In this document: piece by piece, positions 8,743-44,695 of the stretch | Position numbering within the stretch: position 1 is the stretch's first letter | How the letters are laid out: every line of letters begins with the position of its first letter | DNA from: a virus | Virus record (IMG/VR): IMGVR_UViG_3300043015_001453 | Location: 1-48,615 of that record | Reading direction: 5' to 3' (one strand) | DNA length: 48,615 nt | Notes under the pieces: generated by a model | The model's database searches: none | Seen by the model: the letters and a program-made list of their open reading frames with translations, nothing else | What the model was told of the DNA's origin: nothing | Made by a program: the position numbers and the translations under genes

Positions 8743-9918
8743 ATGTTATTTCAGATACTTGATGATAAACGAGACTGTCTCGGTCTCTTTGCTAATGGAG
8801 ATTTTTATTATGGACAGATTAAGAGAGCTTTTGAGAAGACCTGGGATTGGTCTCCTCACTTATCAGATGATGATTATGAATACGCTAGGATATGGTGTGG
8901 AGGCAAGTCACTTGAAGAGGTTTGTCCCGAACATCTCTCAGATCGCTTGGAAATCCACAAAAAGAGAGTTAAGAATTTTGTAAAGGCAGCATCGGTTGCT
9001 AAAATCAACCTTGACGATGTCTGCTTGTTCGATATCATTCCCAAGCAAGCTCTTATTCACTGGTGTCAAGTTAAAAATGAGATATGTGAATATGTGTTTG
9101 AGAATCATACCAAACCAGCAAACCACAAGTTCATGATTGACCTCAGCAAGATGGTTTATGAAATTTCCAATAATGGCGTTATTTTGAACCAAGACCGACT
9201 ATTTAGTTACCAGAAGACCGACTACAAGGCCAAGACTCTTTGGAAGAGTTTTGGAGGAAAAACTCCTGTAATATCGTATGATATTTATGGCTCTGTGACT
9301 GGTCGTCTAACAACGAAGTCAGGTTCATTTCCCATCTTAAATCTTAAGAAGGATATCGCAGATATCGTTGTCCCCAAAAACAACTTATTTATTCAATTCG
9401 ACTTCAACGGTGCGGAGATCAGAACCCTTTTGTCTCTTGCCGGTGAGTCTCAACCAAAGGAAGACATACATGAATTTAACGCAAAAATACTTAAATGTTC
9501 TCGTGCTGAAGCTAAGAAAAAATTCTTCGCATGGTTCTATAATCCGAACAAAAAAAGCGTAGAGCTATCACAACACTACAGACGAGATGCTGTATTGGAA
9601 AGACATTACGCTGATGGAGTTGTAATGACTCCGTTTGGAAGAAAGATTGAAGCAGATGATTTTCATTCGTTTAATTATTTGCTTCAATCTACCTCTTCTG
9701 ATAATTGTTTAGCGCAAGCAATTAAAATAAATAAGTTTTTATCTGGAAAGCGCTCATTTGTTCATTCTGTTGTCCACGACTCAATCTGTATTGATTTTCA
9801 TAAGGACGATAGAGAACTAATTACTCAGATAAAACAAATATTTGAAGACACGAGACTAGGACAGTTCAAGTCTTCGATGCAAATAGGCAGAAACTACAGA
9901 GATATGGAGGAAGTGTGA
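8743..9918 (+). CDS. truncated family A DNA polymerase (PolA-like)
   Basis: This 391-aa protein has family A palm and fingers motifs. GRLTTKSGSFPILNLKK matches the GRL-SS-PNLQNIP segment. Motif A is FDFNGAEIRTL with its Asp. A motif B-like RAEAKKKFFAWFYNP lies at about residue 250. Motif C is VHDSICID near residue 343. Both catalytic Asp residues are present, so it is probably active. The first ~150 residues resemble neither a 3'-5' exonuclease nor a 5'-3' nuclease domain, so this is a minimal polymerase. The GGAGG site at 8734 supports this start. A separate DnaE at 33131 is the likelier replicative enzyme, so a repair, gap-filling or primer-processing role is inferred. Confidence 0.8.
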   Translation: MLFQILDDKRDCLGLFANGDFYYGQIKRAFEKTWDWSPHLSDDDYEYARIWCGGKSLEEVCPEHLSDRLEIHKKRVKNFVKAASVAKINLDDVCLFDIIPKQALIHWCQVKNEICEYVFENHTKPANHKFMIDLSKMVYEISNNGVILNQDRLFSYQKTDYKAKTLWKSFGGKTPVISYDIYGSVTGRLTTKSGSFPILNLKKDIADIVVPKNNLFIQFDFNGAEIRTLLSLAGESQPKEDIHEFNAKILKCSRAEAKKKFFAWFYNPNKKSVELSQHYRRDAVLERHYADGVVMTPFGRKIEADDFHSFNYLLQSTSSDNCLAQAIKINKFLSGKRSFVHSVVHDSICIDFHKDDRELITQIKQIFEDTRLGQFKSSMQIGRNYRDMEEV

Positions 9919-10721
9919 GCGTTTTAATAGGTTTAGGTAAAGCAGGTTGTGAGATAGTAAGCAAATTTTCGGATTCTCATAAGAAAATTACCATAGATGC
10001 TGGTTCGGAACTCCCAGAGTTCGACTCACCAGAAGACTACGAGGAAAAACTTACCAATTATGCGCATCTTTTGGATTTTGAAGAGCCGGAATGTTATTTC
10101 TTCGTGTGTGGTGCCGGTAAAGTCTCCGCAGCGTCTCTAAGGCTCTTAGAATTACTACAATCCAAGAAAATTAACCTAGTTTACATCTATCCCGAAGAGA
10201 TAATGTTGTCGCCAACACAGAAAAAGTTAAATCGTGTTGCTTTTAACGTATTTCAGCAGTATGCAAGATCAGGTTTGTTCAATTCTTTGTATCTTATGTC
10301 AAATGAAGACATTGCCTCCATACTTCCGTACTATTCCATGGAAAATCTCTATGATTACTTGAATAATGCGATAGTCAATGTGTTTGAGAACGTTATATTC
10401 TATCTCAATGAGAAACCTGTTATGGGCGCTCACCATGAACCCAAAGAAATATCCCGCATTAGAACAGTTGAATTCGGCAATTTCAAAGAAAATAAAAAAA
10501 ATATGTATTTTCCACTTGACAACATCACTGAGACATGCTATATTAATATTGTAAGCGATGAGGATATGAAAAACAACAGAGAGATGTTGGATACTCTGAA
10601 AGACAAGATAAGAAAAGATACTGATAACAATATCAACTCTTCTTTCACAGTCTTTAGGACAGAGCACGAACATTCTTTCTATTATGCAATTCACTTCACT
10701 CATTATTTACAAGAAAAATAA
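9915..10721 (+). CDS. divergent FtsZ/tubulin-like protein (putative)
   Basis: This 268-aa protein starts with GTG in a GTGA overlap with the polymerase gene. Residues 3-13 (VLIGLGKAGCE) look like the glycine-rich first nucleotide-binding loop of FtsZ/tubulin. Residues 61-80 (YFFVCGAGKVSAASLRLLEL) occupy the place of the tubulin signature loop GGGTGTGAAP, followed by a strand. The canonical GGGTGSG is degenerate, so GTP binding is uncertain, and at 268 aa it is shorter than FtsZ (~320-400). If real, it could form a filament that positions phage DNA like PhuZ, or be a cofactor-binding relative. The motif is seen; the function is inference. Confidence 0.5.
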   Translation: MSVLIGLGKAGCEIVSKFSDSHKKITIDAGSELPEFDSPEDYEEKLTNYAHLLDFEEPECYFFVCGAGKVSAASLRLLELLQSKKINLVYIYPEEIMLSPTQKKLNRVAFNVFQQYARSGLFNSLYLMSNEDIASILPYYSMENLYDYLNNAIVNVFENVIFYLNEKPVMGAHHEPKEISRIRTVEFGNFKENKKNMYFPLDNITETCYINIVSDEDMKNNREMLDTLKDKIRKDTDNNINSSFTVFRTEHEHSFYYAIHFTHYLQEK

Positions 10722-11668: not shown

Positions 11669-12421
11669 ATGGCACTTAATATTGAACTAATGAAACAAAA
11701 GCTTGCAAGCTCACAAAACAAGAATGCAGGTAAATCAAATGATACTAAATGGCGACCGTCAGAAGGAGATCAAACAATTCGAATCCTTCCAACCAAAGAT
11801 GGAGACCCGTTCAAGGAATTCCACTTCCACTACAATGTAGGAAAGAATCCTGGTATCCTTTGTCCTAAAAAGAACTACGGCGAGCACTGCCCTATTTGTG
11901 AATTCGCCTCTACTCTCTGGCGAGATGGAGTCGATAATAATGATGATCAAACTAAAAATGCTGCAAAGAAGTTATTCGCTCGTAAGCGTTACTACTCTCC
12001 AATCCTTGTCCGAGGTCAAGAGACCTCTGGTGTAAAGATTTGGGCTTACGGTAAGACCGCATATGAGACACTTCTTGGATATGTATTAGATCCTGATTAT
12101 GGAGATATTACATCATCCGAAACCGGAACTGACATCGTTCTTTCGTATACAGTTCCTGGCACACCCGGATCTTTCCCAAAGACCCAACTTAAACCTCGTC
12201 GCCGACCCTCCGTTTTGTGCGACGATGCAATCGCTGACTGTGATGCTCTTCTTGATAGCGTGCCCGACATCGAAGCACAATTTACAAGACTGTCATCTGA
12301 AGATATACAAGCTCTGTTGGACGACTATCTATCTACGGATTCCTCCTCCGAAATGTCCTCCTCTGAAACTGCCAAATATGGTAGTGCCGTAGATAAAAAG
12401 ATTAGCGACTTTCTAAGTTAG
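11669..12421 (+). CDS. gp32-like single-stranded DNA-binding protein
   Basis: This 250-aa protein carries the gp32 zinc motif: His52, Cys65, Cys74 and Cys77 in GILCPKKNYGEHCPICEF, with His-Cys spacing equal to T4 gp32 (H-X12-C). A basic, aromatic-rich core follows. The end is Ser- and Asp-rich (about 208-240), as in the acidic C-terminal tail by which gp32 binds partners. It would coat ssDNA and organise replication and recombination with UvsX (13124) and the helicase (16784). It is somewhat shorter than T4 gp32 (301 aa). It has its own strong promoter and a terminator, fitting a highly expressed protein. Confidence 0.85.
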   Translation: MALNIELMKQKLASSQNKNAGKSNDTKWRPSEGDQTIRILPTKDGDPFKEFHFHYNVGKNPGILCPKKNYGEHCPICEFASTLWRDGVDNNDDQTKNAAKKLFARKRYYSPILVRGQETSGVKIWAYGKTAYETLLGYVLDPDYGDITSSETGTDIVLSYTVPGTPGSFPKTQLKPRRRPSVLCDDAIADCDALLDSVPDIEAQFTRLSSEDIQALLDDYLSTDSSSEMSSSETAKYGSAVDKKISDFLS

Positions 12422-12612: not shown

Positions 12613-13131
12613 ATGCCTGCACAAGACGATAAAAGAGAAAACCAACAAAAAAAATTTTTAGGACTAATGGAGTCTCACAAGAGAGATCAAAAATATGATT
12701 GTTTGTGGAACAATAAAGCTAAAATAGAACTAAAAACTAGACAAGTTAATAAGTCTTGTACTACCAAGAGAAGAGTCACCGAGACTACTTTAAAAGAGTG
12801 GGAAGATGTATTTTGGGTTATTTCAGAGTATAAAAAAGATAAACCAGATATCATTGATGGAAAAACTATTCTTCTTTTCCCAGAACACTTAGCAGAGTGG
12901 AGAAAAAAAACCTTAAATGGATTAAAAAAGGGAACAGAAAAACAACTTGGCTATAATGATATCGATCATCTAAAAGGTCCATCTGATATCATAGAAAAAG
13001 TAAGAAAGCAGGTCCACAAAAACGATCCTCATATTGGCTTAAAATTTATTAATATGGGAATTACTATAAAAGATTCCAAACACTTCAATGAAGTTATGGA
13101 AGAATATTACAAGGAGAAACCAAATGACTAA
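12613..13131 (+). CDS. unknown protein, possible PD-(D/E)XK nuclease
   Basis: This 172-aa basic protein starts at ATG 12613 behind AAGGAGG. Residues ~28-42 contain YDCLWNNKAKIELKTR, in which an Asp and a downstream ELK could form a PD-(D/E)XK active site. A strand with WVISEYKKD follows, as in some restriction-type nucleases. That reading rests on a short pattern and is weak. The gene overlaps uvsX by eight bases, so the two are co-translated, suggesting a DNA-related job. The alternative is a structural or regulatory protein without enzymatic activity. Confidence 0.55.
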   Translation: MPAQDDKRENQQKKFLGLMESHKRDQKYDCLWNNKAKIELKTRQVNKSCTTKRRVTETTLKEWEDVFWVISEYKKDKPDIIDGKTILLFPEHLAEWRKKTLNGLKKGTEKQLGYNDIDHLKGPSDIIEKVRKQVHKNDPHIGLKFINMGITIKDSKHFNEVMEEYYKEKPND

Positions 13132-14224
13132 AGCAGGTAAAATTGACCTAAAAGCGATGCAAAAACTTGTTAACAAAAAGACTGGCTTAAACGTTGCTCA
13201 CAACCTAAACGAAAACAATCCCACTATTGTGAAAGAGTGGATTCCGACAGGCTCTCGCTGGCTTGATTCTATTACATGTAGAGGAAGGCTTGGCGGTATC
13301 CCAGTAGGAAAGATAACTGAGATTGCTGGACTATCTGGTGCTGGTAAATCATTCATGGCTGCTCAAATTGCTGCTAACGCTCAGAAGAAAGGAAAGTTTC
13401 CTGTCTACTTTGATGCTGAATCTGCAATTGACCCTCACTTCTTGGAAAGCTGTGGAGTTGACACTGAGAACCTAATGTATGTTCAAGCAATTTCTGTTGA
13501 GAAAGTATTAGAAACAATTGAGACTCTCATTGATCAATATGAAGATACACAATTTATATTTATCTGGGACTCAATTGCTGCAACAAGTTCAGAAAAAGAA
13601 CTTGAATCAGACTTTAATCCTCAATCAACAATGTCCGTTAAACCAAGAATCTTTGGTAAGGCATTTCCCAAACTGACTATTCCTTTGGCTAATGGACAAC
13701 ACACCTTACTTCTGATCAATCAGTTGAAAACCAACATTAACGTTCAGAACCCAATGGCCGCTCTTATTGAGCCTTACATCGCACCCGGCGGTAAAGCTAT
13801 TGAATACTTCTGCTCTATGCGTATTTGGCTTACAAAGCGTAAATCAAAAGCAGCATACTTGCAAGATGAAACTGGTCTTCGCATTGGTTCAGAAGTAAAG
13901 TGTAAACTCCAGAAGTCTCGCTTCGGGACTGAAGGAAGAGAGTGCACATTCAAGATTCTATGGTCTGGTGGCGCTGCTATTCAAGATGAAGAGTCTTGGC
14001 TGTTAGCACTCAAATCCTCTGGAACCAAACGCTTGAAACTATCAGGCGCATGGTATACTCTTGTTGATAAAGATGGAAAAGAAATAAAATTCCAAGGAAA
14101 ACAATGGAAGGCAAAACTTCAAGATCCACATTTTAGACAAACGGTTCTAGATATTATGGATGAAGAGATTGTCAAGAAGTTTGATTCCGAAGGTAAAAAT
14201 TTTGGTGTGAGTGAAGACGAATAG
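13124..14224 (+). CDS. uvsX: UvsX/RecA-like recombinase
   Basis: This 366-aa protein has Walker A GLSGAGKS (residues 69-76), and FIFIWDSIAA around residue 155 serves as Walker B. LLLINQLK lies near residue 205. The N-terminal region and PTGSRWLDSITCRGRLGGIPVGKITEIAG match RecA/UvsX proteins. UvsX forms ATP-dependent filaments on ssDNA and promotes strand invasion for recombination-dependent replication. The start at 13124 is chosen because AAGGAG lies at 13111; it overlaps the previous gene by eight bases. A strong terminator follows at 14248. Confidence 0.9.
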   Translation: MTKAGKIDLKAMQKLVNKKTGLNVAHNLNENNPTIVKEWIPTGSRWLDSITCRGRLGGIPVGKITEIAGLSGAGKSFMAAQIAANAQKKGKFPVYFDAESAIDPHFLESCGVDTENLMYVQAISVEKVLETIETLIDQYEDTQFIFIWDSIAATSSEKELESDFNPQSTMSVKPRIFGKAFPKLTIPLANGQHTLLLINQLKTNINVQNPMAALIEPYIAPGGKAIEYFCSMRIWLTKRKSKAAYLQDETGLRIGSEVKCKLQKSRFGTEGRECTFKILWSGGAAIQDEESWLLALKSSGTKRLKLSGAWYTLVDKDGKEIKFQGKQWKAKLQDPHFRQTVLDIMDEEIVKKFDSEGKNFGVSEDE

Positions 14225-18151: not shown

Positions 18152-20128
18152 ATGTTAAGATTAAAAGATGTAAATGTAAGAAAGTTTCGACTTTCTGAGC
18201 AGTTTATTGCTCAATATAAAGAAGCCGAGGTCCCTTGGGGGCCTGTCGGTTATGTTACGTTTAAGCGTACATATGCTCGCCGTCTAAGCGAGTTTGAAGA
18301 AGGCGCTGTGGGCACTGAAGAATGGTGGCAAACATGTCGCCGTGTTATCGAAGGAATGTTCGACATTCAGAAGCGTCACGCTTTCATGATTGGAATTGAA
18401 TGGAATGATGCTAAAGCACAGCGAACTGCTAAAGAAGCATATGACCGACTCTTCAATCTCAAGTGGACACCACCCGGCCGTGGCCTTTGGATGATGGGCA
18501 CCAAGTTCATCATGGAGAGAACAGGTGCTGGTCTTTTCAACTGTGCTTTCCGTTCTACACGAGACCTTGCTAATAAAGGTGGTTATCTCTATGCTTGGAT
18601 GATGGATGCTCTTATGGTTGGTATCGGTGTTGGCTTTGATACTCTCGGAGCAGGAACTTTTAAGGTCAAAGAGCCGCAATGGATTGAAGACACACTACTT
18701 ATTGAGGACTCTCGTGAAGGTTGGGTTAACAGTGTGCATGTCTTGCTTGATGGCTTTATTCTTGGTAAAAAAGTTCCCAACTTTGATTACTCCGCTATTC
18801 GTGGAAAAGGTGAGCCAATTCGTGGTTTTGGTGGAACATCTTCCGGTCCTGATCCACTCATTGAGCTTCACAATAACCTAAAAGAATTACTCAGTCCAAA
18901 AGTAGGAGAAGAAATTGACTCGGTTGATATTGTTGACATTGAAAACCTCATCGGTCGTTGCGTTGTTGCTGGTAATGTACGTCGCTCTGCTGCCTTGGCC
19001 ATTGGCCAAAACGATGATAAAAATTATCTCACAATGAAAAATGACCAAGAGAAGTTGTATCACCATCGCTGGGGCTCAAACAACTCCTTCGAAGCAAAGG
19101 TTGGTATGGATTATACTTGGCATGCTTCACAGTCTGCTATCAATGGAGAACCCGGTTATATTTGGTTGGACAATGCTCGTCATTACGGACGTATGAAAGA
19201 CGGAAAGCGTTATGATGATATGAAAGTTATGGGCTTCAATCCTTGTGTAGAGCAACAACTTGAAGATGCAGAGCTTTGTTGTTTGGTAGAGACCTTCCCA
19301 GCCAAGCACGAAACATATGAAGATTATGTCAAGACTCTTGAAATTGCTTATATGTATGGAAAGACTGTAACTCTCATCAACACTCATTGGCCTGAGACAA
19401 ATGCTATCATGCTAAAGAATCGCCGTATTGGTCTTTCTCAATCTGGTGTTATTCAAGCGTTCAACAAGTTTGGAAGACGCACAATGATTAATTGGTGCGA
19501 TGATGCCTATAAGCACGTTGAAGAGCTTGATACAAAATACTCAGACTGGCTCTGTGTTCCACGTAGTGTCCGTATGACTTCTATCAAACCATCAGGAACA
19601 GTATCTCTTCTTAACGGTTCAACACCGGGTATTCACTATCCAGAGGATGAATACTACATTCGTCGTATTCGTTTCGCTGAGACCTCTGACATCCTTCCAA
19701 CGCTTGAAAAAGCCGGATACAAGATTGAAAAGGACTCATACTCTCCAAACACTATGTGCGTTGAGTTCCCTGTTCATGAGCCGTTTTTCAAGAAAGGAAA
19801 GCGAGAGATCACAATGTGGGAGCAACTTGAAATCGCTGCTCAATACCAATATTATTGGGCTGACAACTCTGTTTCCATCACTGTGACTTTCCAAGAGCAT
19901 GAAGCAGAAGAGATCAAAGATGCACTTGAAATGTATGAAGCGAGACTCAAAGCTGTTTCTTTCCTTAAATACATGGAGACTGGTTATAAGCAAGCACCTT
20001 ACGAGCCAATCACCAAAGAAGAATATGAAGAGATGATAAAAGGCATCACACCTATTCAAAAGATTGAGACAAATCAAGGTGGAGTTGGAAGCAAATATTG
20101 TACAACCGATAAATGCGAAATCATTTAG
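18152..20128 (+). CDS. nrdJ: adenosylcobalamin-dependent (class II) ribonucleotide reductase
   Basis: In this 658-aa protein Cys131 (LFNCAF) and Cys376 match the redox pair. Cys365 and Glu367 in FNPCVEQQL match the thiyl Cys and catalytic Glu, with the 11-residue spacing to the second Cys seen in the Lactobacillus leichmannii enzyme. The C-terminal CTTDKC (650-655) is the swinging dithiol pair. It is a monomeric class II enzyme that makes deoxynucleotides using vitamin B12 coenzyme and no oxygen. It is shorter than the ~740-aa Lactobacillus enzyme, so allosteric parts may be reduced. The glutaredoxin at 45895 could be its reductant. The host must supply cobalamin. Confidence 0.92.
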   Translation: MLRLKDVNVRKFRLSEQFIAQYKEAEVPWGPVGYVTFKRTYARRLSEFEEGAVGTEEWWQTCRRVIEGMFDIQKRHAFMIGIEWNDAKAQRTAKEAYDRLFNLKWTPPGRGLWMMGTKFIMERTGAGLFNCAFRSTRDLANKGGYLYAWMMDALMVGIGVGFDTLGAGTFKVKEPQWIEDTLLIEDSREGWVNSVHVLLDGFILGKKVPNFDYSAIRGKGEPIRGFGGTSSGPDPLIELHNNLKELLSPKVGEEIDSVDIVDIENLIGRCVVAGNVRRSAALAIGQNDDKNYLTMKNDQEKLYHHRWGSNNSFEAKVGMDYTWHASQSAINGEPGYIWLDNARHYGRMKDGKRYDDMKVMGFNPCVEQQLEDAELCCLVETFPAKHETYEDYVKTLEIAYMYGKTVTLINTHWPETNAIMLKNRRIGLSQSGVIQAFNKFGRRTMINWCDDAYKHVEELDTKYSDWLCVPRSVRMTSIKPSGTVSLLNGSTPGIHYPEDEYYIRRIRFAETSDILPTLEKAGYKIEKDSYSPNTMCVEFPVHEPFFKKGKREITMWEQLEIAAQYQYYWADNSVSITVTFQEHEAEEIKDALEMYEARLKAVSFLKYMETGYKQAPYEPITKEEYEEMIKGITPIQKIETNQGGVGSKYCTTDKCEII

Positions 20129-20485: not shown

Positions 20486-21400
20486 ATGAAACTTACAGCA
20501 GGAAAACTAAAATCACTTATCGAAGAAGTGATATCAGAGAATAGAAGATCATCAATGATACTTTCTGAGGCAACTCAATGGAGTCAATACAACCGTATCA
20601 TGGATATATTCTCCGGAGAAGTAGGTTCTGTAGATCAAGTTGTTATTATGAGCCCAATGAACCCTCATGCAAAAGCAATTAGCGCAGAACAAAATGAAAA
20701 ACGTAAAGAAGCTTTCTTGGAAGATATGAAAAGAGCCGGCTTTGGTTTTAGAATGATTGAAGGGATGTATGGTGGCCCTGAAGATTCTTATATTATACCT
20801 CACATGTCAGCCGATGAAGCTACATTTTATTGTTATAAATATGCACAAGAGTCGTTCGTATACTCGGTTCGTCAAGACCCTGTTCCAAGTCCAGATGATC
20901 CTGTTGTTCATCAGATGTGTTATATAGATTTCAAAGAACCGCAACAAGACCCAAACTATCCAGAAGATATTTACGGCAAGATGTATGTTGTACCAGATAG
21001 TGCTTCGCATACAGTCGGAGAAGAGACAACCGATATGAATGACTTTTCTCAAATGGCTGGCGCAACCAACTATTACAGTTCTGTTCCTAAGAAGGGTCCT
21101 AAAGCTGGTCCTAAATTCTCAATGGATTTTGACTTTGCTGCGGGCAAGAAAGGAAATATTACAAAGCCTATGTCTGATCCTCGCAATCCTAAGTATCCTC
21201 GTCTTGAAGAGACCTATATTTCAATCAAAGAATCTGATATTCCAAACACTACAGAAGCAAAGCGACTGGTTGAGAGCATCAATGCAAGAGCGGCTAAAAT
21301 CAATGAAAAAGATAGAATTGGAAGTTCAAGATGGAGAGAGCGTCTTAAAATGAATGGAGAGAAGCAAAAACTTCTTAAGCTTGTTAAGAGGCGCAAATGA
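20486..21400 (+). CDS. MKLT-prefixed protein, possible head-packaged internal protein
   Basis: In this 304-aa protein the N-terminus MKLTAGKLKSLIEEVISEN is shared with several unrelated proteins here (25648, 28254, 31131, 38968). It ends in the L/I-x-E pattern used by T4 prohead protease, suggesting a cleaved capsid-targeting tag. After it, residues ~50-135 (MSPMNPHAKAIS, then N-x-x-R and a GGPEDSYIIP turn) resemble the DUF3293 layout, of unknown function. The C-terminus is strongly basic, which would suit DNA contact. It begins one base after the groES-like stop and overlaps thyX by four bases. Confidence 0.6.
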   Translation: MKLTAGKLKSLIEEVISENRRSSMILSEATQWSQYNRIMDIFSGEVGSVDQVVIMSPMNPHAKAISAEQNEKRKEAFLEDMKRAGFGFRMIEGMYGGPEDSYIIPHMSADEATFYCYKYAQESFVYSVRQDPVPSPDDPVVHQMCYIDFKEPQQDPNYPEDIYGKMYVVPDSASHTVGEETTDMNDFSQMAGATNYYSSVPKKGPKAGPKFSMDFDFAAGKKGNITKPMSDPRNPKYPRLEETYISIKESDIPNTTEAKRLVESINARAAKINEKDRIGSSRWRERLKMNGEKQKLLKLVKRRK

Positions 21401-22134
21401 ACCAATATGAAAAATCAATTGATCTCTATGGAGATAACATCGGTAGGGTGGACTATGTTTCTCATATGGGTTCTGACCTTACCGTTGTTAATAGTGCTCG
21501 TGTCTCTTTTGGTACTACAAAGTCTGAATTGGATAAACGTGATAGGAAGCTTATACGCTACCTTATTGCCCACAAACACACTTCTACTTTGGAGCATTGT
21601 GTTGTTACCTTTAAATTTACTGTGCCTCTATTCATTCGTTCTCAACATCACCGTCACAGAACGTGGAGTTATAACGAAATTAGTAGACGATACACAGACA
21701 AAGAACTTCGGTTTTATTGTCCACGAGAATTTAGAACACAACACAAATCAAACAGACAAGCCTCAAATATAGAAGAGTTGATTGATCCAATTTTGTGGCA
21801 CGATGGAGAGTCTCAAATTATTCCTGCTTTCCATCCACAGGCTTCTGAAGTGTACCGAGAACATTGTCAAAGCTCTTTGAACCTATTTCATGAACTAGTT
21901 AATAAAGGAGTGTGTAGAGAACAGGCAAGAGGTGTATTACCACAAACACTTTACACGGAGTATTATGGAACTTGCAATCTCAATAACCTTCTTAAATTTG
22001 TTTCTCTTCGCTTACATGATGGTGCACAATATGAAATACAAAAAGTCGCAGAAGCATGCTTGGAAATCGCCACCGACCTTTTCCCTGTCACAGTCAAAGC
22101 ATACAGAAATGCAACTGGTCACAGCGAAGTATAA
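21397..22134 (+). CDS. thyX: flavin-dependent thymidylate synthase
   Basis: This 245-aa protein has the ThyX signature RHRTWSYNEISRRY at residues 86-99. LPQTLYTEYYGTCNLNNLLKFVSLRL further on matches the substrate-binding C-terminal part. ThyX methylates dUMP to dTMP with methylene-tetrahydrofolate, FAD and NADPH. It complements the ribonucleotide reductase, dUTPase (38178) and deaminase-like gene (26182). The length is usual for the family. The start overlaps the preceding stop by four bases (ATGA). Confidence 0.93.
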   Translation: MNQYEKSIDLYGDNIGRVDYVSHMGSDLTVVNSARVSFGTTKSELDKRDRKLIRYLIAHKHTSTLEHCVVTFKFTVPLFIRSQHHRHRTWSYNEISRRYTDKELRFYCPREFRTQHKSNRQASNIEELIDPILWHDGESQIIPAFHPQASEVYREHCQSSLNLFHELVNKGVCREQARGVLPQTLYTEYYGTCNLNNLLKFVSLRLHDGAQYEIQKVAEACLEIATDLFPVTVKAYRNATGHSEV

Positions 22135-26030: not shown

Positions 26031-26189
26031 ATGCAAATCAATGATTTAGTAAAAATTATCTCAACAAACGAATTGGGTGTTCTTGTTGAAATAGTAAAGG
26101 AAAATGGATACCCAGATGAATATGTAGTTGAAATTGACGGAGAGCAGTTTTGTTGCTTCAAATCAGAGTTGGAGGTACTTGATGTTTAA
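26031..26189 (+). CDS. small SH3-barrel-like protein
   Basis: This 52-aa protein starts at ATG 26031 behind AGGAGGAATA and overlaps the deaminase-like gene by eight bases. The pattern MQINDLVKIIST, then LGVLVEIVKENG, then YVVEIDGEQF fits a five-strand small barrel. It belongs to the group of short acidic proteins scattered through the window. Function unknown. Confidence 0.55.
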   Translation: MQINDLVKIISTNELGVLVEIVKENGYPDEYVVEIDGEQFCCFKSELEVLDV

Positions 26190-27180
26190 TCCCAATCTCA
26201 AACTCATTCAAAAGATAAAGCAAAACGGTGGTTTTATAAACGCCCATGCTCACTTTGATCGGGCTTATACAGTAACAGAACATAATATGGAGAAGGTGGT
26301 TAATTACCACCTTTTTGATAAGTGGCAGTTCGTAGATAAGTTCAAGAAGAACGCAGAGGTCTCAATCTATATTGAGAACATGATGACAGCAGTCAACCAG
26401 CAGATAAGAATGGGTGCCGTTGGTGCCTTAACTTTTGTCGATATTGATTCGGTGTGTGGATTCAAAGCAGTAGAAGCCGCCCAGATAGTAAAAAAAGAGG
26501 CAAAAGCCAAAGGTTTTGAACTCAAAATCTGTTCTCAAGCACTCAAAGGGGTATTAGCGCCCAAAGAAAATAAACTGCTTAGAAAAGCCTTAGAATTGGG
26601 ATATTTGGATGTTATAGGTGGACTTCCGAGAGCAGATGAAGGAAAAGCACAAGCACATTTGGATGAGATCTTGTTTCTTGGTAAAGAACATGGAAAGAGA
26701 GTTCATGTTCATGTTGATCAACTTAATGATTCGCTTGAGAAAGAAACCGAAATGCTTGCTCGTAGAACAATGCATTGGGGCATGGAAGGAAGAGTCACCG
26801 CCGTCCATGGTATTTCCATAGCAGCCCACCCAAAAGAATATAGAGAGCGTGTCTATGGTATGGCTCGTGATGCAGATCTTTCATTTATCACATGTCCAAC
26901 AGCATGGATTGATTCTCGTAGAAAAGAATGGCTGGCTCCGACCCATAACTCAATAACACCAGTTGAAGAAATGCTGCAGCATGGTCTAACAGTTGCTATC
27001 GGCTCAGATAACATTCACGATGTATATAAACCATTTTCAGATGGAAACATGTACACTGAGGTCAGATTTCTATTAGAATGCCTTCATTTATATGATATTG
27101 ATGCTCTTGTTGATATCGCTACCAAGAACGGGAGACTAGTTATTGGTATGGAGGACGATATGAATGGAGAACAAACATAA
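26182..27180 (+). CDS. cytosine-deaminase-like amidohydrolase
   Basis: In this 332-aa protein metal-site motifs of the amidohydrolase superfamily are present: HAHFDRAY near residue 21, HVHVDQ near 174, HGIS near 213 and GSDNIHD near 274. The order and the phage context point to the cytosine deaminase/AtzC-like branch. It would deaminate a pyrimidine or related ring, possibly feeding uracil into the thymidylate pathway. The substrate cannot be fixed from sequence. The true start is ATG 26182, behind GGAGG, not the in-frame upstream triplets. Such an enzyme is uncommon in phages. Confidence 0.75.
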   Translation: MFNPNLKLIQKIKQNGGFINAHAHFDRAYTVTEHNMEKVVNYHLFDKWQFVDKFKKNAEVSIYIENMMTAVNQQIRMGAVGALTFVDIDSVCGFKAVEAAQIVKKEAKAKGFELKICSQALKGVLAPKENKLLRKALELGYLDVIGGLPRADEGKAQAHLDEILFLGKEHGKRVHVHVDQLNDSLEKETEMLARRTMHWGMEGRVTAVHGISIAAHPKEYRERVYGMARDADLSFITCPTAWIDSRRKEWLAPTHNSITPVEEMLQHGLTVAIGSDNIHDVYKPFSDGNMYTEVRFLLECLHLYDIDALVDIATKNGRLVIGMEDDMNGEQT

Positions 27181-27761: not shown

Positions 27762-28147
27762 GGGGGCGCAATGGTTTCGACAGGGTAGACATGAAGGACA
27801 AGTGCAAGTAAGCCTGAACAGCTTTGATAGTTTAAAAAAATTATAATTGCCAATAATAACAATTATTTCGAAGTAGCTCAAGCAGCTTAATCGGGTGGTT
27901 TCTTTATACCATCAGTCCAAATAAAGATAGTCAGATAGGTGAGACGATAAAGTTATAAGGAAGTCTAGCGGACTTTGCCGTACCTAAAATGGTTACCCTG
28001 TTGGTAGCAGGTGGAACTCTAAGGCTACACAAGAGTTGGTTGGAAAAAAGGTAGCTACTTTGTTTGTTTAGAGAAACAAAATAAACTTGTGAACGACTTT
28101 AATTTATGATGCTGTGGACGAGGGTTCGATTCCCTCCGCCTCCACCA
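27762..28147 (+). ncRNA. ssrA: tmRNA (ssrA), one-piece
   Basis: The 5' end GGGGGCGCAATGGTTTCGAC and the 3' end GGGTTCGATTCCCTCCGCCT plus CCACCA form the tRNA-like half; acceptor GGGGGCG pairs with CGCCTCC. The tag reading frame at 27849-27890 gives ANNNNYFEVAQAA then TAA. tmRNA rescues stalled ribosomes and tags the nascent peptide for proteolysis. The tag ends QAA rather than the usual LAA. The 386-nt length is typical of a complete molecule with pseudoknots. A strong terminator follows. Confidence 0.92.
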
Positions 28148-29236: not shown

Positions 29237-30187
29237 ATGAATATATTTAGCATAGTAACATTCTTGGCATGCAGTCAAGAAGTTAAGGTAGACGAACAAA
29301 AACTACTAACACAGTCAAAGGCAATCTTTAACACAATAGATTCGCTTGAGGCAAAACAAGATACAAAAGAAATTGTTGCGTTAGGTCGCGAGTTGTATCT
29401 AGAAAAAGCATTGAGCGGTAATGGAACACAATCTTGTGAGTCCTGTCATTTGCTCGATCACCACGGAGCAGAACCGCTTCGTGTTTCAGTAGGAGCTTAT
29501 GGAAAAGAAGTTGAGCGCAATGCACCATCAACTTTTAACTCTGGCTTTCATATCTCTCAGTTTTGGGATGGACGAGCAGCAACTCTTGAAGAACAAGCGG
29601 CTGGACCTATCACAGCAGCAGGCGAAATGGGTATGCCTTCACAAGAAGCAGCAGTTAAAGCAATCGCTTCAATTGAGAAATACCCTGCTTTATTTGCCTC
29701 TGTTTTCCCAAACGAAGAGAACAGTATAACATTTAATAACATAACCAAGGCTATTGCTGCATTTGAAAGAACTCTTGTAACCTCTGACCGTTTTGATGAC
29801 TGGATGAAAGACCAAGGTAAACTTACTACAACAGAACTCAAAGGTCTTGAAACTCTCATCAATACCGGATGTGTATCTTGTCATAACGGTCCTCTATTGG
29901 GAGCCAACTCTTATCAGAAGGTTGGAGTTATGGAGCCATATCGCCCAGACCCAGAACACATTGATCTTGGTCGTTTCAATGTAACAGGTAATCCAGCAGA
30001 CAAAGAAGTGTTCAAAGTTCCTTCATTGCGAAATGTAACCAATACAGCGCCATACTTTCATGATGGTCGTGTATCAACAATCGAAGAAGCCATATCTACT
30101 ATGGCTCGTATTCAACTTGGAAAACAACTATCGGAAAAAGAAATTGCCGACATCGTTGCCTTTCTTAAAACAATGGAGAAAAAATGA
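29237..30187 (+). CDS. diheme cytochrome c peroxidase-like lipoprotein
   Basis: In this 316-aa protein MNIFSIVTFLAC gives a very short signal with lipobox TFLAC (Cys12). Two heme c sites are present: CESCH at 67-71 and CVSCHNGPLLG at 212-216. Family blocks in order include QFWDGRAATLEEQA, GPITAAGEMGMP, AIAAFERTL, VPSLRNVTNTAPYFHDGR and a helical end. This is the MauG/CcpA peroxidase family, which reduces peroxide in the periplasm. It needs host cytochrome c maturation. Such a gene is very unusual for a phage; it may help the host's respiration or peroxide resistance. It is coupled by ATGA to the next lipoprotein gene. Confidence 0.9.
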   Translation: MNIFSIVTFLACSQEVKVDEQKLLTQSKAIFNTIDSLEAKQDTKEIVALGRELYLEKALSGNGTQSCESCHLLDHHGAEPLRVSVGAYGKEVERNAPSTFNSGFHISQFWDGRAATLEEQAAGPITAAGEMGMPSQEAAVKAIASIEKYPALFASVFPNEENSITFNNITKAIAAFERTLVTSDRFDDWMKDQGKLTTTELKGLETLINTGCVSCHNGPLLGANSYQKVGVMEPYRPDPEHIDLGRFNVTGNPADKEVFKVPSLRNVTNTAPYFHDGRVSTIEEAISTMARIQLGKQLSEKEIADIVAFLKTMEKK

Positions 30188-33130: not shown

Positions 33131-36100
33131 ATGAATAATATAAAATTTGTTGGGCTTCACGCTCATTCGGGTGTTGGCTCACCCTTTGATGGCTTCGGCT
33201 ACCCGCAAGACCACATGAACTTTTGCTACGAGAATGGAGGACAGGCTCTAGCATTAACCGATCATGGAAACATGAATGGTTTCGCATATCAGATTCTGCA
33301 CGCAAACAAGATGGCAAAAGAAGGTAAAGACTTCAAACCAATCTTTGGTGTGGAAGCATACTTCATTGAAGATGTCGAAGACTGGAGAAAACAGTATGAA
33401 GAACACAAGGCAGATAAGAAGAAAGCCAAAGAACTATCTGATAAGCAATCAGGTGTAAACGTAGAGGAAGAAGGTGCGACCAAGTCAAAAGGTCGTTCCA
33501 TTAACCGTTCTCGTCATTTAGTTCTTCTCGCAATGAACCAAAACGGTCTTAACAATATATTTAAATTAGTATCGGAAAGTTACAGTGAGAAATACTTTTA
33601 TCGCAAGCCTCGCATGGATTATAGTCTCCTTCGCAAATACAGCGATGGTGTTATTGCTATGTCTGCTTGTCTTGGTGGTGTTTACGCTGGGTGCTATTGG
33701 GAAAACATTGAGAACGGTGAAGAGGCTGTTCTTGACTGCATGCGCGAAACAACCCGTACTATGGTTGATATCTTTGGTGATCGCTGGTATGGTGAGTTAC
33801 AGTGGAATGCTGTACCTGAGCAGCATGCTCTAAATAAATACATCATCCAGATGCACAAAGAGTTTGGTATCAAGTTGGTTTCAACTGCTGACTCTCACTA
33901 TCCTACACCAACTGCTTGGAAAGACCGTGAGCTATACAAGCGGCTCGGTTGGTTGGGACGTGGTGCGCCTGAATGGTTGGACATGACTCTTCCCGGTTCT
34001 GTTCAAGATATGGATTATGAACTCTATCCAAAGAATGGAGAACAAATGTGGGAAGACTTCAAGAAATACTCGGAGGAATATGATTATGATGAAGAACTCG
34101 TATTTAGAAGCATTGAGGAAAGTCACACCATTGCTTTCGAACGCATTGAACAGTTTGTTCCAGACACTACTGTTCGTCTTCCTGATTTTGTTGTACCTGC
34201 GGGTCGTGATGAAGATGACTACCTACGTGATCTATCACTTGGTGGCCTAAGTCACTTGAGAAAGAACAGCCCAGAATATATTTCCAGAATCAATCATGAA
34301 CTCAGCGTTATTGCTGATCGTGGTTTCTCAAAGTATTTCTTAACAATGAAAGCCATATCAGACAAAACAAATGAAGTTCAGTTGGCTGGTCCAGGTCGTG
34401 GTTCTGCTGCTGGTTCATTGGTAGCCTATGCTCTCGGAATCACACAGGTTGATCCTATTGAGTATGGACTTCTGTTTTCTCGTTTCTTGCGTTCTGATGC
34501 AACAGACTATCCGGACATCGACTATGATGTATCTGATCCCATGGTTCTCAAAGATATGCTTATCGAAGAGTGGGGCGATGATGTTGTTGTTCCTATCTCA
34601 AACTGGAATACACTTCAGCTTCGTTCTCTCCTCAAAGATATCTCAAAGTTCTACGAGATTCCATTCAATGAAGTGAATGCTGTTACAAACGTTATGATGA
34701 AAGAAGCCACACCTGCGGCCAAGCGAAAGCATGGTATTAAGGCTGGTGTATATACTCCAACCTTTGAAGAGACCATTGAGTTCTCCGACAGTCTTCGTGG
34801 GTTTCTTAACAAGTATCCACATGTAGCAGATCACGTCATGGCTCTTTATGGTTCTTATCGTTCATGCTCTCGTCATGCTGGCGGTGTGGTGGTTGGAGAA
34901 CAATTAAATAAATATATGCCTTTGATCTCGTCTAAAGGCGTTAGACAAACTCCATGGTCTGAGGGGCAGAACGTTCGTCAGCTTGAGCCTCTTGGTTTTA
35001 TCAAGTTCGATATTCTTGGACTATCAACTCTCAGAATGATTGAAGATTGCATTAGACGTATTCTAGTTAACAATGGAACTGAACAACCAACGTTTGCTCA
35101 GATCAAAGCATTTTATGATCAGAACCTCCATCCGGACGTTATTGATTTTGACAATCAGGATATTTATGAAAACATTTTTCACGAAGGTAAATGGGCTGGT
35201 ATCTTTCAGTTCACAGAGAAAGGCGCACAGTCATTTGCTGTCCGTGCCCAGCCGAAGTCCATTATTGATATCGCAGCTATTACGTCAATCTATCGCCCTG
35301 GGCCTTTATCGGCTGGTGTTGATAAGCAGTATGTTGCTGCTATTAATGACACTCTATCGATTGAGTATCTTCACCCTCTTGTAGAAGAAGTTACCAAAGA
35401 GACCTACGGCTTCTTGATTTTCCAAGAACAGATTGCTATGTTGGCTTATAAACTTGGAGAAAATATCTCTATGGATGAAGCTAACCTCCTCCGCAAAGTA
35501 CTTACTAAGAAGGGTACGGGTAAAGGACATGAGGTTAAAGAGGCGATCAAGGAGAAGTTTCTTGCTGGGTGCGAGAAGAAGGAGATCAGAAAAGAGGACG
35601 CTGAAAAGCTATGGGCCACTTTTGAATATTTCTCTGGTTACGGCTTCAATAAGTCTCATGCTGTATCATACTCCATCATATCTTATCAGTGTGCTTACCT
35701 TTATAACTATTTTCCTACTGAGTGGATGTGTAGTTTCTTGGATCGTGAGCCCGACACTAAGAAAGAGCAAGCAATTAATATTGCTAAGTCTCATGGTTAC
35801 TCTATCCGTCCTATTGATATCAATCTTTCTGGCGACTCTTGGGAGGCTGCTTCTGACCACGAGTTAGTTGCGCCGCTCACAACTATCAAAGGTCTTGGAG
35901 ACAAGGCTATCGAAGAGATTGTTGCGAACCGTCCTTTTGAGACTGTTGAGGAATTGCTATTCAATGAGAACGTTATCTATCGTAAACTCAACAAGAAGTC
36001 TTTGGATGCTCTTTGTCGCGGTGGTGCTTTGGATTCCCTCATTGATGATAGGTTCACAGGTGCTCAACACTTCTGGGCTGCTTGTTGCCAAGATCGTCCA

Positions 36101-36556
36101 AAAAACCTCAAAAAACTCGCTGAAAATATTGAGGCATATAAGGAGGCCGGTGACTTCTCAAAAGACGATAGAGTTGAATTTCTTACGGAATTGACGGGTA
36201 TTTTTCCTATGAATCTTGTTGCTCCGGAAGAAGTCCAAGAGTCTCTAGCTAAGTTCTGCGTTCCACCTATCTCTGAGTTTGATGCTGCTCTTGGTGCATG
36301 TTGGGGTATACCTCGTAATGTCAATCTTCGCAAGTCAAAGAATGGCAAGTGGTTTGCTGTTATTGATCTGATCGATTCAAACAGTAAACTTACCAAGCTT
36401 CGGTATTGGGGTGTGAACAAAGACACAATCCGAGACGAGATTCTCTTGAACGAAGTTTACATTATCAAGCCGCAATATTCTGATGGTTGGGGATTCTCAA
36501 CGAGAGGTCATGTTGATAGAACATGGAAACGTATGACAACAAACAAGGAGGAATAA
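33131..36556 (+). CDS. dnaE: DNA polymerase III alpha subunit (DnaE-type, family C)
   Basis: This 1141-aa protein is close to full bacterial DnaE length. The PHP domain starts at GLHAHSG (His10, His12). The palm has GPGRGSAAGSLVAYALGI and PDIDYD (Asp462, Asp464). Next come RHAGGVVV, FDILGL, YRPGPL, IFQEQIAML and FSGYGFNKSHAVSYS. A helix-hairpin-helix (about 950) and an OB-like domain (about 1060-1130) follow. It should copy the phage genome. T4-like phages normally use a family B enzyme, so this is a replacement. No proofreading subunit or clamp loader was recognised in the window. Confidence 0.93.
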   Translation: MNNIKFVGLHAHSGVGSPFDGFGYPQDHMNFCYENGGQALALTDHGNMNGFAYQILHANKMAKEGKDFKPIFGVEAYFIEDVEDWRKQYEEHKADKKKAKELSDKQSGVNVEEEGATKSKGRSINRSRHLVLLAMNQNGLNNIFKLVSESYSEKYFYRKPRMDYSLLRKYSDGVIAMSACLGGVYAGCYWENIENGEEAVLDCMRETTRTMVDIFGDRWYGELQWNAVPEQHALNKYIIQMHKEFGIKLVSTADSHYPTPTAWKDRELYKRLGWLGRGAPEWLDMTLPGSVQDMDYELYPKNGEQMWEDFKKYSEEYDYDEELVFRSIEESHTIAFERIEQFVPDTTVRLPDFVVPAGRDEDDYLRDLSLGGLSHLRKNSPEYISRINHELSVIADRGFSKYFLTMKAISDKTNEVQLAGPGRGSAAGSLVAYALGITQVDPIEYGLLFSRFLRSDATDYPDIDYDVSDPMVLKDMLIEEWGDDVVVPISNWNTLQLRSLLKDISKFYEIPFNEVNAVTNVMMKEATPAAKRKHGIKAGVYTPTFEETIEFSDSLRGFLNKYPHVADHVMALYGSYRSCSRHAGGVVVGEQLNKYMPLISSKGVRQTPWSEGQNVRQLEPLGFIKFDILGLSTLRMIEDCIRRILVNNGTEQPTFAQIKAFYDQNLHPDVIDFDNQDIYENIFHEGKWAGIFQFTEKGAQSFAVRAQPKSIIDIAAITSIYRPGPLSAGVDKQYVAAINDTLSIEYLHPLVEEVTKETYGFLIFQEQIAMLAYKLGENISMDEANLLRKVLTKKGTGKGHEVKEAIKEKFLAGCEKKEIRKEDAEKLWATFEYFSGYGFNKSHAVSYSIISYQCAYLYNYFPTEWMCSFLDREPDTKKEQAINIAKSHGYSIRPIDINLSGDSWEAASDHELVAPLTTIKGLGDKAIEEIVANRPFETVEELLFNENVIYRKLNKKSLDALCRGGALDSLIDDRFTGAQHFWAACCQDRPKNLKKLAENIEAYKEAGDFSKDDRVEFLTELTGIFPMNLVAPEEVQESLAKFCVPPISEFDAALGACWGIPRNVNLRKSKNGKWFAVIDLIDSNSKLTKLRYWGVNKDTIRDEILLNEVYIIKPQYSDGWGFSTRGHVDRTWKRMTTNKEE

Positions 36557-43120: not shown

Positions 43121-44695
43121 ATGTCAAAACAATATAACAACGGTTCTTCTCTCAACGAGAAGATCTTAAAGGGTATGAATGTTCTTGCGGATAACGTGGG
43201 AACAACCCTTGGCCCAAAGGGACGCAATGTAATTCTTTATGATAAGAAGCAAAACATTCCTGTGATCACAAAAGATGGTGTAACCATCGCAAAGTTTGTG
43301 GAACTTGATGACCCGTTTGAAAACGTTGGTGTTCAGATTCTTAAGCAAGCGGCAGAGCAATCCGCAAACAAGGCTGGTGATGGAACCACAACCACCACCG
43401 TCTTAACGAGAGGAATTATCAACAAGGCTCAGAAGTATCTGACCTCTGGTGTTTCTCCTATTGAACTTAAACGTGGTATGGATAAGGCATGTGAAGTTAT
43501 CTGTGAGAAACTTGCAGAGCATGCGAGACCTATTCAGACAGAACAAGATATCTATCATATTGCAACTATCTCTGCTAACAACGACAAGTCTATTGGAACA
43601 TTAATCTCCAAGGCTATCGATGCAGCAGGTAAAGATGGAACTGTCCTTGTTGAAGAGGCTCGCTCTGTTAACACATCACTTGATCTCATCGAAGGATTTC
43701 GTTTCGATAGTGGCTATATTTCGCCTACATTTATCACGAACGAACGTGCCGGCACCGTAGACTACGATAGTCCTCTACTGCTCGTTACAGATGAAAAAGT
43801 TGAGACTATAGAGCAAATTTTACCTACTCTAGAACTAGCTGCGAGAGAGTCTCGTCCTCTCATTATTGTTGCTGGTGAAATGGAAGGTCAAGCACTTGCT
43901 GCTGTAATTGCAAATGCTGTCCGTGGCACAATGAAAGTTGCTGCTGTCAAGGCTCCGAGATACGGAGAAGAAAGACGTAACATCCTCAAAGACCTTTGCG
44001 CTTCTGTTGGTGCGACTTTTGTAACAAGAGAGAATAGTTTGACCCTCCGAGATGTCAAGTTAACTCACTTCGGTCAAGCAAAGAAAATAACAGTATCAAA
44101 AGCATGGACGACTATCGTAGGAGGCAAAGGCGATGAGGAAGAGATTGAAAAGCGTATTGAGGCGGTTAAGGCCCTCATATCTGAAGAAGAAGATTTGCGA
44201 GTCTGTGAGCGTCATCAAGAGCGAATCACTAGATTGGCATCCGGAGTGGCCGTCATAAAGGTCGGTGCTGCAACTGAAGTTGAAATGATTGAGAAGAAGC
44301 ATCGTATCGATGATGCTTTGGAAGCAGTTCGTTCAGCACAAGAAGAAGGTATCGTTCCCGGTGGCGGTGTTTCATTGCTAAAATCTGTATCTGATATCCA
44401 GATTCAAGCAGACAACGATGAACAAGCCTTGGGCGCTAAGATTGTTATCGAAGCAGTTGAAGAGCCTATTCGTCAAATGGCAAAGAACGCTGGCTTATCA
44501 CCTGACCTTGTTGTTCAGCAGGTTCGTGATACCACAACATTCAATCATGGTATGAACTTTTTAACTGGCGATATAGTTAATCTCCTAGACTCAGGAGTTA
44601 TTGATCCGGTTAAGGTTACAAAGTGTGCACTGCAAAATGCGGTGTCTGTATCCTCAACTATTATCACTACGAGCCACGCTATTGTAAGTTCCTGA
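43121..44695 (+). CDS. groEL: GroEL-like chaperonin
   Basis: This 524-aa protein is full length apart from the GGM tail. TTLGPKGRNVILYDK, GDGTTTTTVLTRGII (equatorial ATP site) and IDDALEAVRSAQEEGIVPGGGVSLL (Asp of the hydrolysis site) are intact. The apical domain VIANAVRGTMKVAAVKAPRYGEERRNIL is also intact. It should fold proteins in an ATP-driven ring, either with the phage GroES-like protein (20218) or alone, as reported for some phage chaperonins. The C-terminal GGM repeat is replaced by a short HAIVSS end. It has its own promoter at 43060. Confidence 0.95.
   Translation: MSKQYNNGSSLNEKILKGMNVLADNVGTTLGPKGRNVILYDKKQNIPVITKDGVTIAKFVELDDPFENVGVQILKQAAEQSANKAGDGTTTTTVLTRGIINKAQKYLTSGVSPIELKRGMDKACEVICEKLAEHARPIQTEQDIYHIATISANNDKSIGTLISKAIDAAGKDGTVLVEEARSVNTSLDLIEGFRFDSGYISPTFITNERAGTVDYDSPLLLVTDEKVETIEQILPTLELAARESRPLIIVAGEMEGQALAAVIANAVRGTMKVAAVKAPRYGEERRNILKDLCASVGATFVTRENSLTLRDVKLTHFGQAKKITVSKAWTTIVGGKGDEEEIEKRIEAVKALISEEEDLRVCERHQERITRLASGVAVIKVGAATEVEMIEKKHRIDDALEAVRSAQEEGIVPGGGVSLLKSVSDIQIQADNDEQALGAKIVIEAVEEPIRQMAKNAGLSPDLVVQQVRDTTTFNHGMNFLTGDIVNLLDSGVIDPVKVTKCALQNAVSVSSTIITTSHAIVSS

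Follow-up and report, generated by a model that had tools for sequence, protein, structure and literature searches.

Evidence for a minimal, divergent tubulin/FtsZ superfamily protein encoded beside a DNA polymerase in uncultured phages

An open reading frame that directly follows the gene for a small PolA-like DNA polymerase in an uncultured phage is strongly supported, by its predicted structure, as encoding a protein of the tubulin/FtsZ superfamily in a divergent and minimal form. The gene lies in a stretch of viral DNA of 48,615 nucleotides (IMG/VR record IMGVR_UViG_3300043015_001453), the whole of which is referred to here as the window. The encoded protein is not a canonical phage tubulin: it carries neither the tubulin signature GGGTG[ST]G nor the NxDxxD motif of loop T7, and no helix H8 is predicted in it. 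The positions of the gene, of its principal sequence elements and of its neighbours are collected in Table 1.

Table 1. Positions in the window of the tubulin-fold gene, its sequence elements and neighbouring genes.
Feature	Positions	Strand	Details	Basis
PolA-like polymerase-domain gene	8743..9918	+	391 aa	PF00476 weak; phrog_17, E 2.3e-19
GGAGG ribosome-binding site	9906..9910	+	within the end of the polymerase gene	sequence inspection
GTGA start/stop overlap, tubulin-fold and PolA-like genes	9915..9918	+	4 bases	
Tubulin/FtsZ-fold protein gene	9915..10721	+	268 aa, GTG start	ORF call, AF2 model, Foldseek, dN/dS
T1 nucleotide loop LIGLGKAGC	9924..9950	+	residues 4-12	aligned with FtsZ/PhuZ T1
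T4-loop equivalent CGAGKVSAAS	10107..10136	+	residues 65-74	aligned with FtsZ/PhuZ T4
QQYARS, end of the long H5 helix	10254..10271	+	Q114-S119	conservation in alignment
N130, equivalent of the base-contacting Asn of FtsZ T6	10302..10304	+	94% conserved	profile alignment
N150, central helix H7, at or beside base-contacting D/N187 of FtsZ	10362..10364	+	95% conserved	
H7-S7 linker	10407..10457	+	residues 165-181, 17 residues	DSSP of model and alignment
gp32-like single-strand DNA-binding protein gene	11669..12421	+		PF08804, E 3.8e-17
UvsX-like recombinase gene, same module	13088..14224	+		phrog_97, E 8.1e-64

When close relatives are compared, dN/dS of the tubulin-fold gene is approximately 0.04-0.12 and the reading frame is kept, and we therefore regard it as a real protein-coding gene under strong purifying selection. 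Four bases separate its GTG start from the GGAGG box, and the same four-base overlap with the upstream gene recurs in the relatives L002-L011, L015 and L016. The GTGA overlap suggests that the PolA-like and tubulin-fold genes are translationally coupled and that their products are made together.

The fold was predicted with AlphaFold2 from an alignment of 75 diverse family sequences. The model has a mean pLDDT of 92.3 and a pTM of 0.90, and its elements, named by their order along the model (DSSP), follow the order of FtsZ: S1-H1-S2 and S4-H4-S5-H5-S6, then the central helix H7 (residues 145-164) and a C-terminal beta domain comprising S7 (182-189), S8 (206-214), H10 (215-237), S9 (241-249) and S10 (255-262). 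In a Foldseek search of the PDB the best 50 matches listed were all FtsZ or TubZ, the latter including 4ei8 and 4ei7, with a best E value of 2.9e-12, TM ~0.7 and 8-13% identity; among viral models, phage FtsZ, phage tubulins and PhuZ lead the matches. A first model, built from 14 similar sequences (pLDDT 57), had matched EngB and azoreductases, and these matches were discarded as uninformative. The first-pass annotation of this DNA had called the product tubulin/FtsZ-like and had named an unrelated Rossmann fold as the finding that would speak against it; structure prediction and fold search, when run, returned FtsZ and TubZ instead, and the assignment is borne out by the confident model.

The family profile was also aligned with profiles of known proteins using hhalign. 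It matches FtsZ collinearly over profile residues 3-166 (E 0.0044) and PhuZ over 92 columns that cover T1-S5 (E 0.00041); the match to FtsZ+PhuZ, the two combined in one profile, extends over 152 columns (E 2.4e-7). A TrkA Rossmann profile, taken as a control, matched over 31 columns at the N-terminus only (E 3e-4), and is thus exceeded by FtsZ+PhuZ both in length and in E value. Against the value for the combined profile, the PolA, SSB, UvsX, reversed FtsZ and reversed PhuZ profiles gave 0.12-0.96; the value of 0.73 for reversed TrkA comes from a TrkA alignment that contained wrong-strand ORFs.

The loops GLGKAG and CGAGKVSAAS, proposed in the first-pass annotation to lie at the nucleotide-loop positions of FtsZ, are indeed aligned with T1 and T4 in the profile-profile comparison. 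Residues G6, G8 and G11 of T1 are invariant among the family sequences (75/75), and A10 is conserved in 94% of them. In T4 the family form is GxGxISGG in place of GGGTG[ST]G, with G66 kept in 96%; the signature, rightly described as degenerate, is so as a trait of the family, GGGTG[ST]G occurring in 0/75 sequences. Conserved residues fall into two groups, one on the nucleotide face (G6, G8, A10, G11, G66, N130 and N150) and the other at the end of H5 and the start of S7 (Q114, R118, S119 and R181), of which Q114, R118 and S119 are invariant in the family. Judging from fold topology, the second group probably lies on the opposite, bottom face of the protein, and Q114-S119 possibly forms an interaction face.

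Between H7 and S7 the linker has the same length of 17 residues in 75/75 sequences and ends in the near-invariant R181. A T7 NxDxxD-like motif is present in 0/75 family sequences, no column of the linker is acidic in more than 53/75, and DSSP of the model places no helix H8 where it would be expected; the loss of T7 and H8 was judged in this way, by predicted secondary structure and alignment. In canonical protofilaments the base of H8 shares one place with loop T7 and S9 (PMC3678025). Hydrolysis coupled to assembly in the canonical way is therefore unlikely, and the predicted loss of both T7 and H8 speaks against polymerization and GTPase activity of the canonical kind.

A search with the window protein found no match among PDB sequences, and three family members, the window protein among them, found nothing when used as tblastn queries against 50,697 phage records. 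Pfam and PHROGs yielded chance-level matches only; a PHROG labelled 'glycosyltransferase' (E 0.0019, partial), DUF3627 and other weak Pfam matches were all rejected as chance. Up to E 10 the window record yielded nothing for the Pfam model PF00091, and two or three family members came nearest to it at E 0.086 at best, short of its cut-off. Close relatives of the gene are found in IMG/VR. The PolA-like neighbour, used as bait, gave loci with polymerases 34-61% identical, and nearly all of these polymerases are followed by a divergent homologue of the tubulin-fold gene; at one of the loci (L022) the longest ORF of the homologue lacks the N-terminal part, encoded in a different frame. A profile built from the bait-found homologues then gave at least 561 loci with relatives in uncultured viruses. 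The only match in bacterial genomes, in a WOR-3 MAG (L110), was set aside as a probable artefact of assembly or binning because a phage segment appears inserted among bacterial genes with N runs nearby. This segment (L110:3514-8873, in the WOR-3 MAG chromosome CP070664.1) resembles a mis-scaffolded phage contig. In open-access papers the family was not found reported.

In the window the gene has those for PolA, a WYL_2-like protein and SSB as its neighbours. The residues of motifs A, B and C are kept in the PolA-like protein, the alignment having been inspected by eye. Loci selected by the gene itself show, where contig ends allow, the order PolA-like, sometimes a small MazG-like gene, the tubulin-fold gene, gp32-like SSB and UvsX. 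As a second test of synteny, 78 loci were picked by the polymerase alone, some of their contigs also being in the gene-selected set, so that the two sets are only partly independent; the tubulin-fold gene is present in 77/78 of them, the exception having only 463 bases downstream, and the order polymerase, tubulin-fold gene, SSB on one strand is found in all 69 of the 69 loci that contain SSB. Six contigs of 141-194 kb carry one copy of the gene each, and no Pfam-detectable tubulin was found in these six. A similar PolA-SSB-UvsX-exonuclease/polymerase-helicase module is present in two cultured phages, Flavobacterium phage immuto and Microcystis phage Mel-JY01; both carry other genes at the place of the tubulin-fold gene, and no homologue was found anywhere in their records. 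The module can therefore work without the gene, and since the polymerase-picked loci carry it and the two cultured outgroups do not, it is a constant trait of a single polymerase clade. A replication-linked role, as the overlap had first suggested, gains support from the strict synteny with PolA and SSB; it is gene position and conservation that suggest this role.

Several other genes of the window and the related loci were recorded. In part of the family the small gene between PolA and the tubulin-fold gene (KLVRDRIPEIITE; L028:5723-6046 and similar places) is presumably MazG-like, as judged by motif. The phage that encodes the small PolA-like protein also carries a full-length Pol III alpha (DnaE-type) gene (window 33131-36556, +), and PolA may therefore not be the main replicase. 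The window further contains a B12-dependent ribonucleotide reductase gene (18152-20128, +), ThyX (21397-22134, +), a gene of the amidohydrolase family (26128-27180, +; PF07969, E 4.7e-15), a gene for a MauG-like di-haem cytochrome c peroxidase (29237-30187, +; PF03150, E 1.4e-51), which is a possible auxiliary metabolic gene, and a GroEL-like chaperonin gene (43121-44695, +; phrog_5725, E 1.7e-137). A tmRNA gene (27762-28147, +; Rfam RF00023, 105 bits), unusual for a phage, adjoins a tRNA-Gly gene and has the tag ANNNNYFEVAQAA.

The protein resembles FtsZ in its fold, the order of its elements, the T1 sequence GxGxAG, the Asn residues at T6 and H7 and the C-terminal beta domain. It differs from FtsZ in having only ~10% identity to it, in the family form of T4, in the lack of the T7 NxDxxD motif and of H8, in its shorter length (268 aa) and in its place within a phage replication module. 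PhuZ is likewise phage-encoded, has the tubulin fold and departs from GGGTG[ST]G at T4; however, even divergent PhuZ proteins retain two invariant T7 aspartates (D201 and D204 in phiKZ numbering), phuZ of phiKZ does not adjoin a polymerase and there is no close sequence similarity between the two. TubZ shares the tubulin fold and a link to DNA maintenance, but is longer than the window protein and has a C-terminal tail. The structure 4b46, which the PDB table lists as FtsZ and which we take to be CetZ, was the sole profile match in one search and is collinear at T1 and H7, although at an E value of 0.47 the match is not significant; CetZ also differs in having a role in archaeal cell shape. 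The best viral structural match, FtsZ of an uncultured Caudovirales phage (A0A6J5RW92; TM 0.77 of the query), is 452 aa long and 13% identical.

Taking gene position and the predicted fold together, the best explanation, to which we give an even chance, is that the protein, a nucleotide-binding one of tubulin fold that does not hydrolyse GTP in the canonical way, serves the PolA/SSB/UvsX machinery as a scaffold or regulatory partner. It would be produced together with the small family-A DNA polymerase, within the PolA-SSB-UvsX replication/recombination module, and would most likely use its retained T1, T4, T6-Asn and H7-Asn positions to bind a guanine nucleotide. The protein may then act as a monomer or dimer bound to PolA, SSB or UvsX or, in an alternative form, as short head-to-tail oligomers with slow turnover. 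A scaffold or partner is favoured over a fast GTP-hydrolysing spindle because the T7 catalytic residues and H8 appear to be lost. More tentatively, the protein may be an obligate replication-recombination component, a non-cytoskeletal, replisome-bound tubulin. In this view the canonical catalytic loop T7 would have been lost, and nucleotide-dependent assembly, whether of the protein alone or together with the polymerase, would proceed through a different bottom face (Q114, R118, S119 and R181); this bolder proposal we hold to be plausible but somewhat short of probable.

The known phage tubulins PhuZ and TubZ are cytoskeletal, and PhuZ is sporadic in its occurrence. A cytomotive filament of the PhuZ/TubZ kind, polymerizing with GTP and centring or moving the phage DNA or the replication site, ranks below the scaffold or partner reading and seems to us rather unlikely. 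The tubulin fold itself, with TubZ among the PDB matches and PhuZ among the viral ones, and the conserved nucleotide face would suit such a filament, as would the predicted position of Q114, R118, S119 and R181 on the opposite face, which head-to-tail assembly would need; but the T7 motif and H8, which belong to the interface of canonical protofilaments (PMC3678025), were not found, the protein has no C-terminal tail (the last strand of the model ends at residue 262 of 268), and the gene is present in 77/77 testable polymerase-picked loci, whereas PhuZ is dispensable to the phages that have it and often absent among them (PMC13282480). It is improbable that the protein acts as a decoy, an FtsZ-like subunit lacking T7 that would block division during infection by capping or poisoning the FtsZ filaments of the host, even though an FtsZ fold that keeps its nucleotide face and lacks T7 and H8 would fit this role. 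Several phages encode FtsZ inhibitors, but genes for host takeover tend to be small and poorly conserved and to lie outside replication operons, whereas this gene is locked between PolA and SSB and its invariant residues are kept down to ~26-34% identity. We attach very little weight to an unrelated nucleotide-binding Rossmann protein, for example of the TrkA/dehydrogenase type, that merely looks like FtsZ. Weak matches to TrkA_N and dehydrogenase models, KtrA at E 0.008, the short TrkA profile match and the mixed Rossmann matches of the first, low-confidence model point that way; against them stand the FtsZ element order of the deep-alignment model, central H7 and C-terminal beta domain included, the FtsZ/TubZ identity of all of the best 50 PDB matches listed, and an FtsZ+PhuZ profile match longer and stronger than that to TrkA.

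The scaffold or partner reading concerns a tubulin-fold family that lies outside the recognition of Pfam and PHROGs, adjoins a DNA polymerase and is conserved across hundreds of uncultured phage contigs. 'Hypothetical' genes of phages can hide cytoskeletal folds past the reach of sequence profiles. If the protein binds nucleotide and replication proteins, it would establish a direct link between the tubulin fold and DNA replication, and the family would test what this fold can do without the catalytic T7 loop. These observations suggest that a fold of the cytoskeleton has been recruited into the replication machinery of phages.
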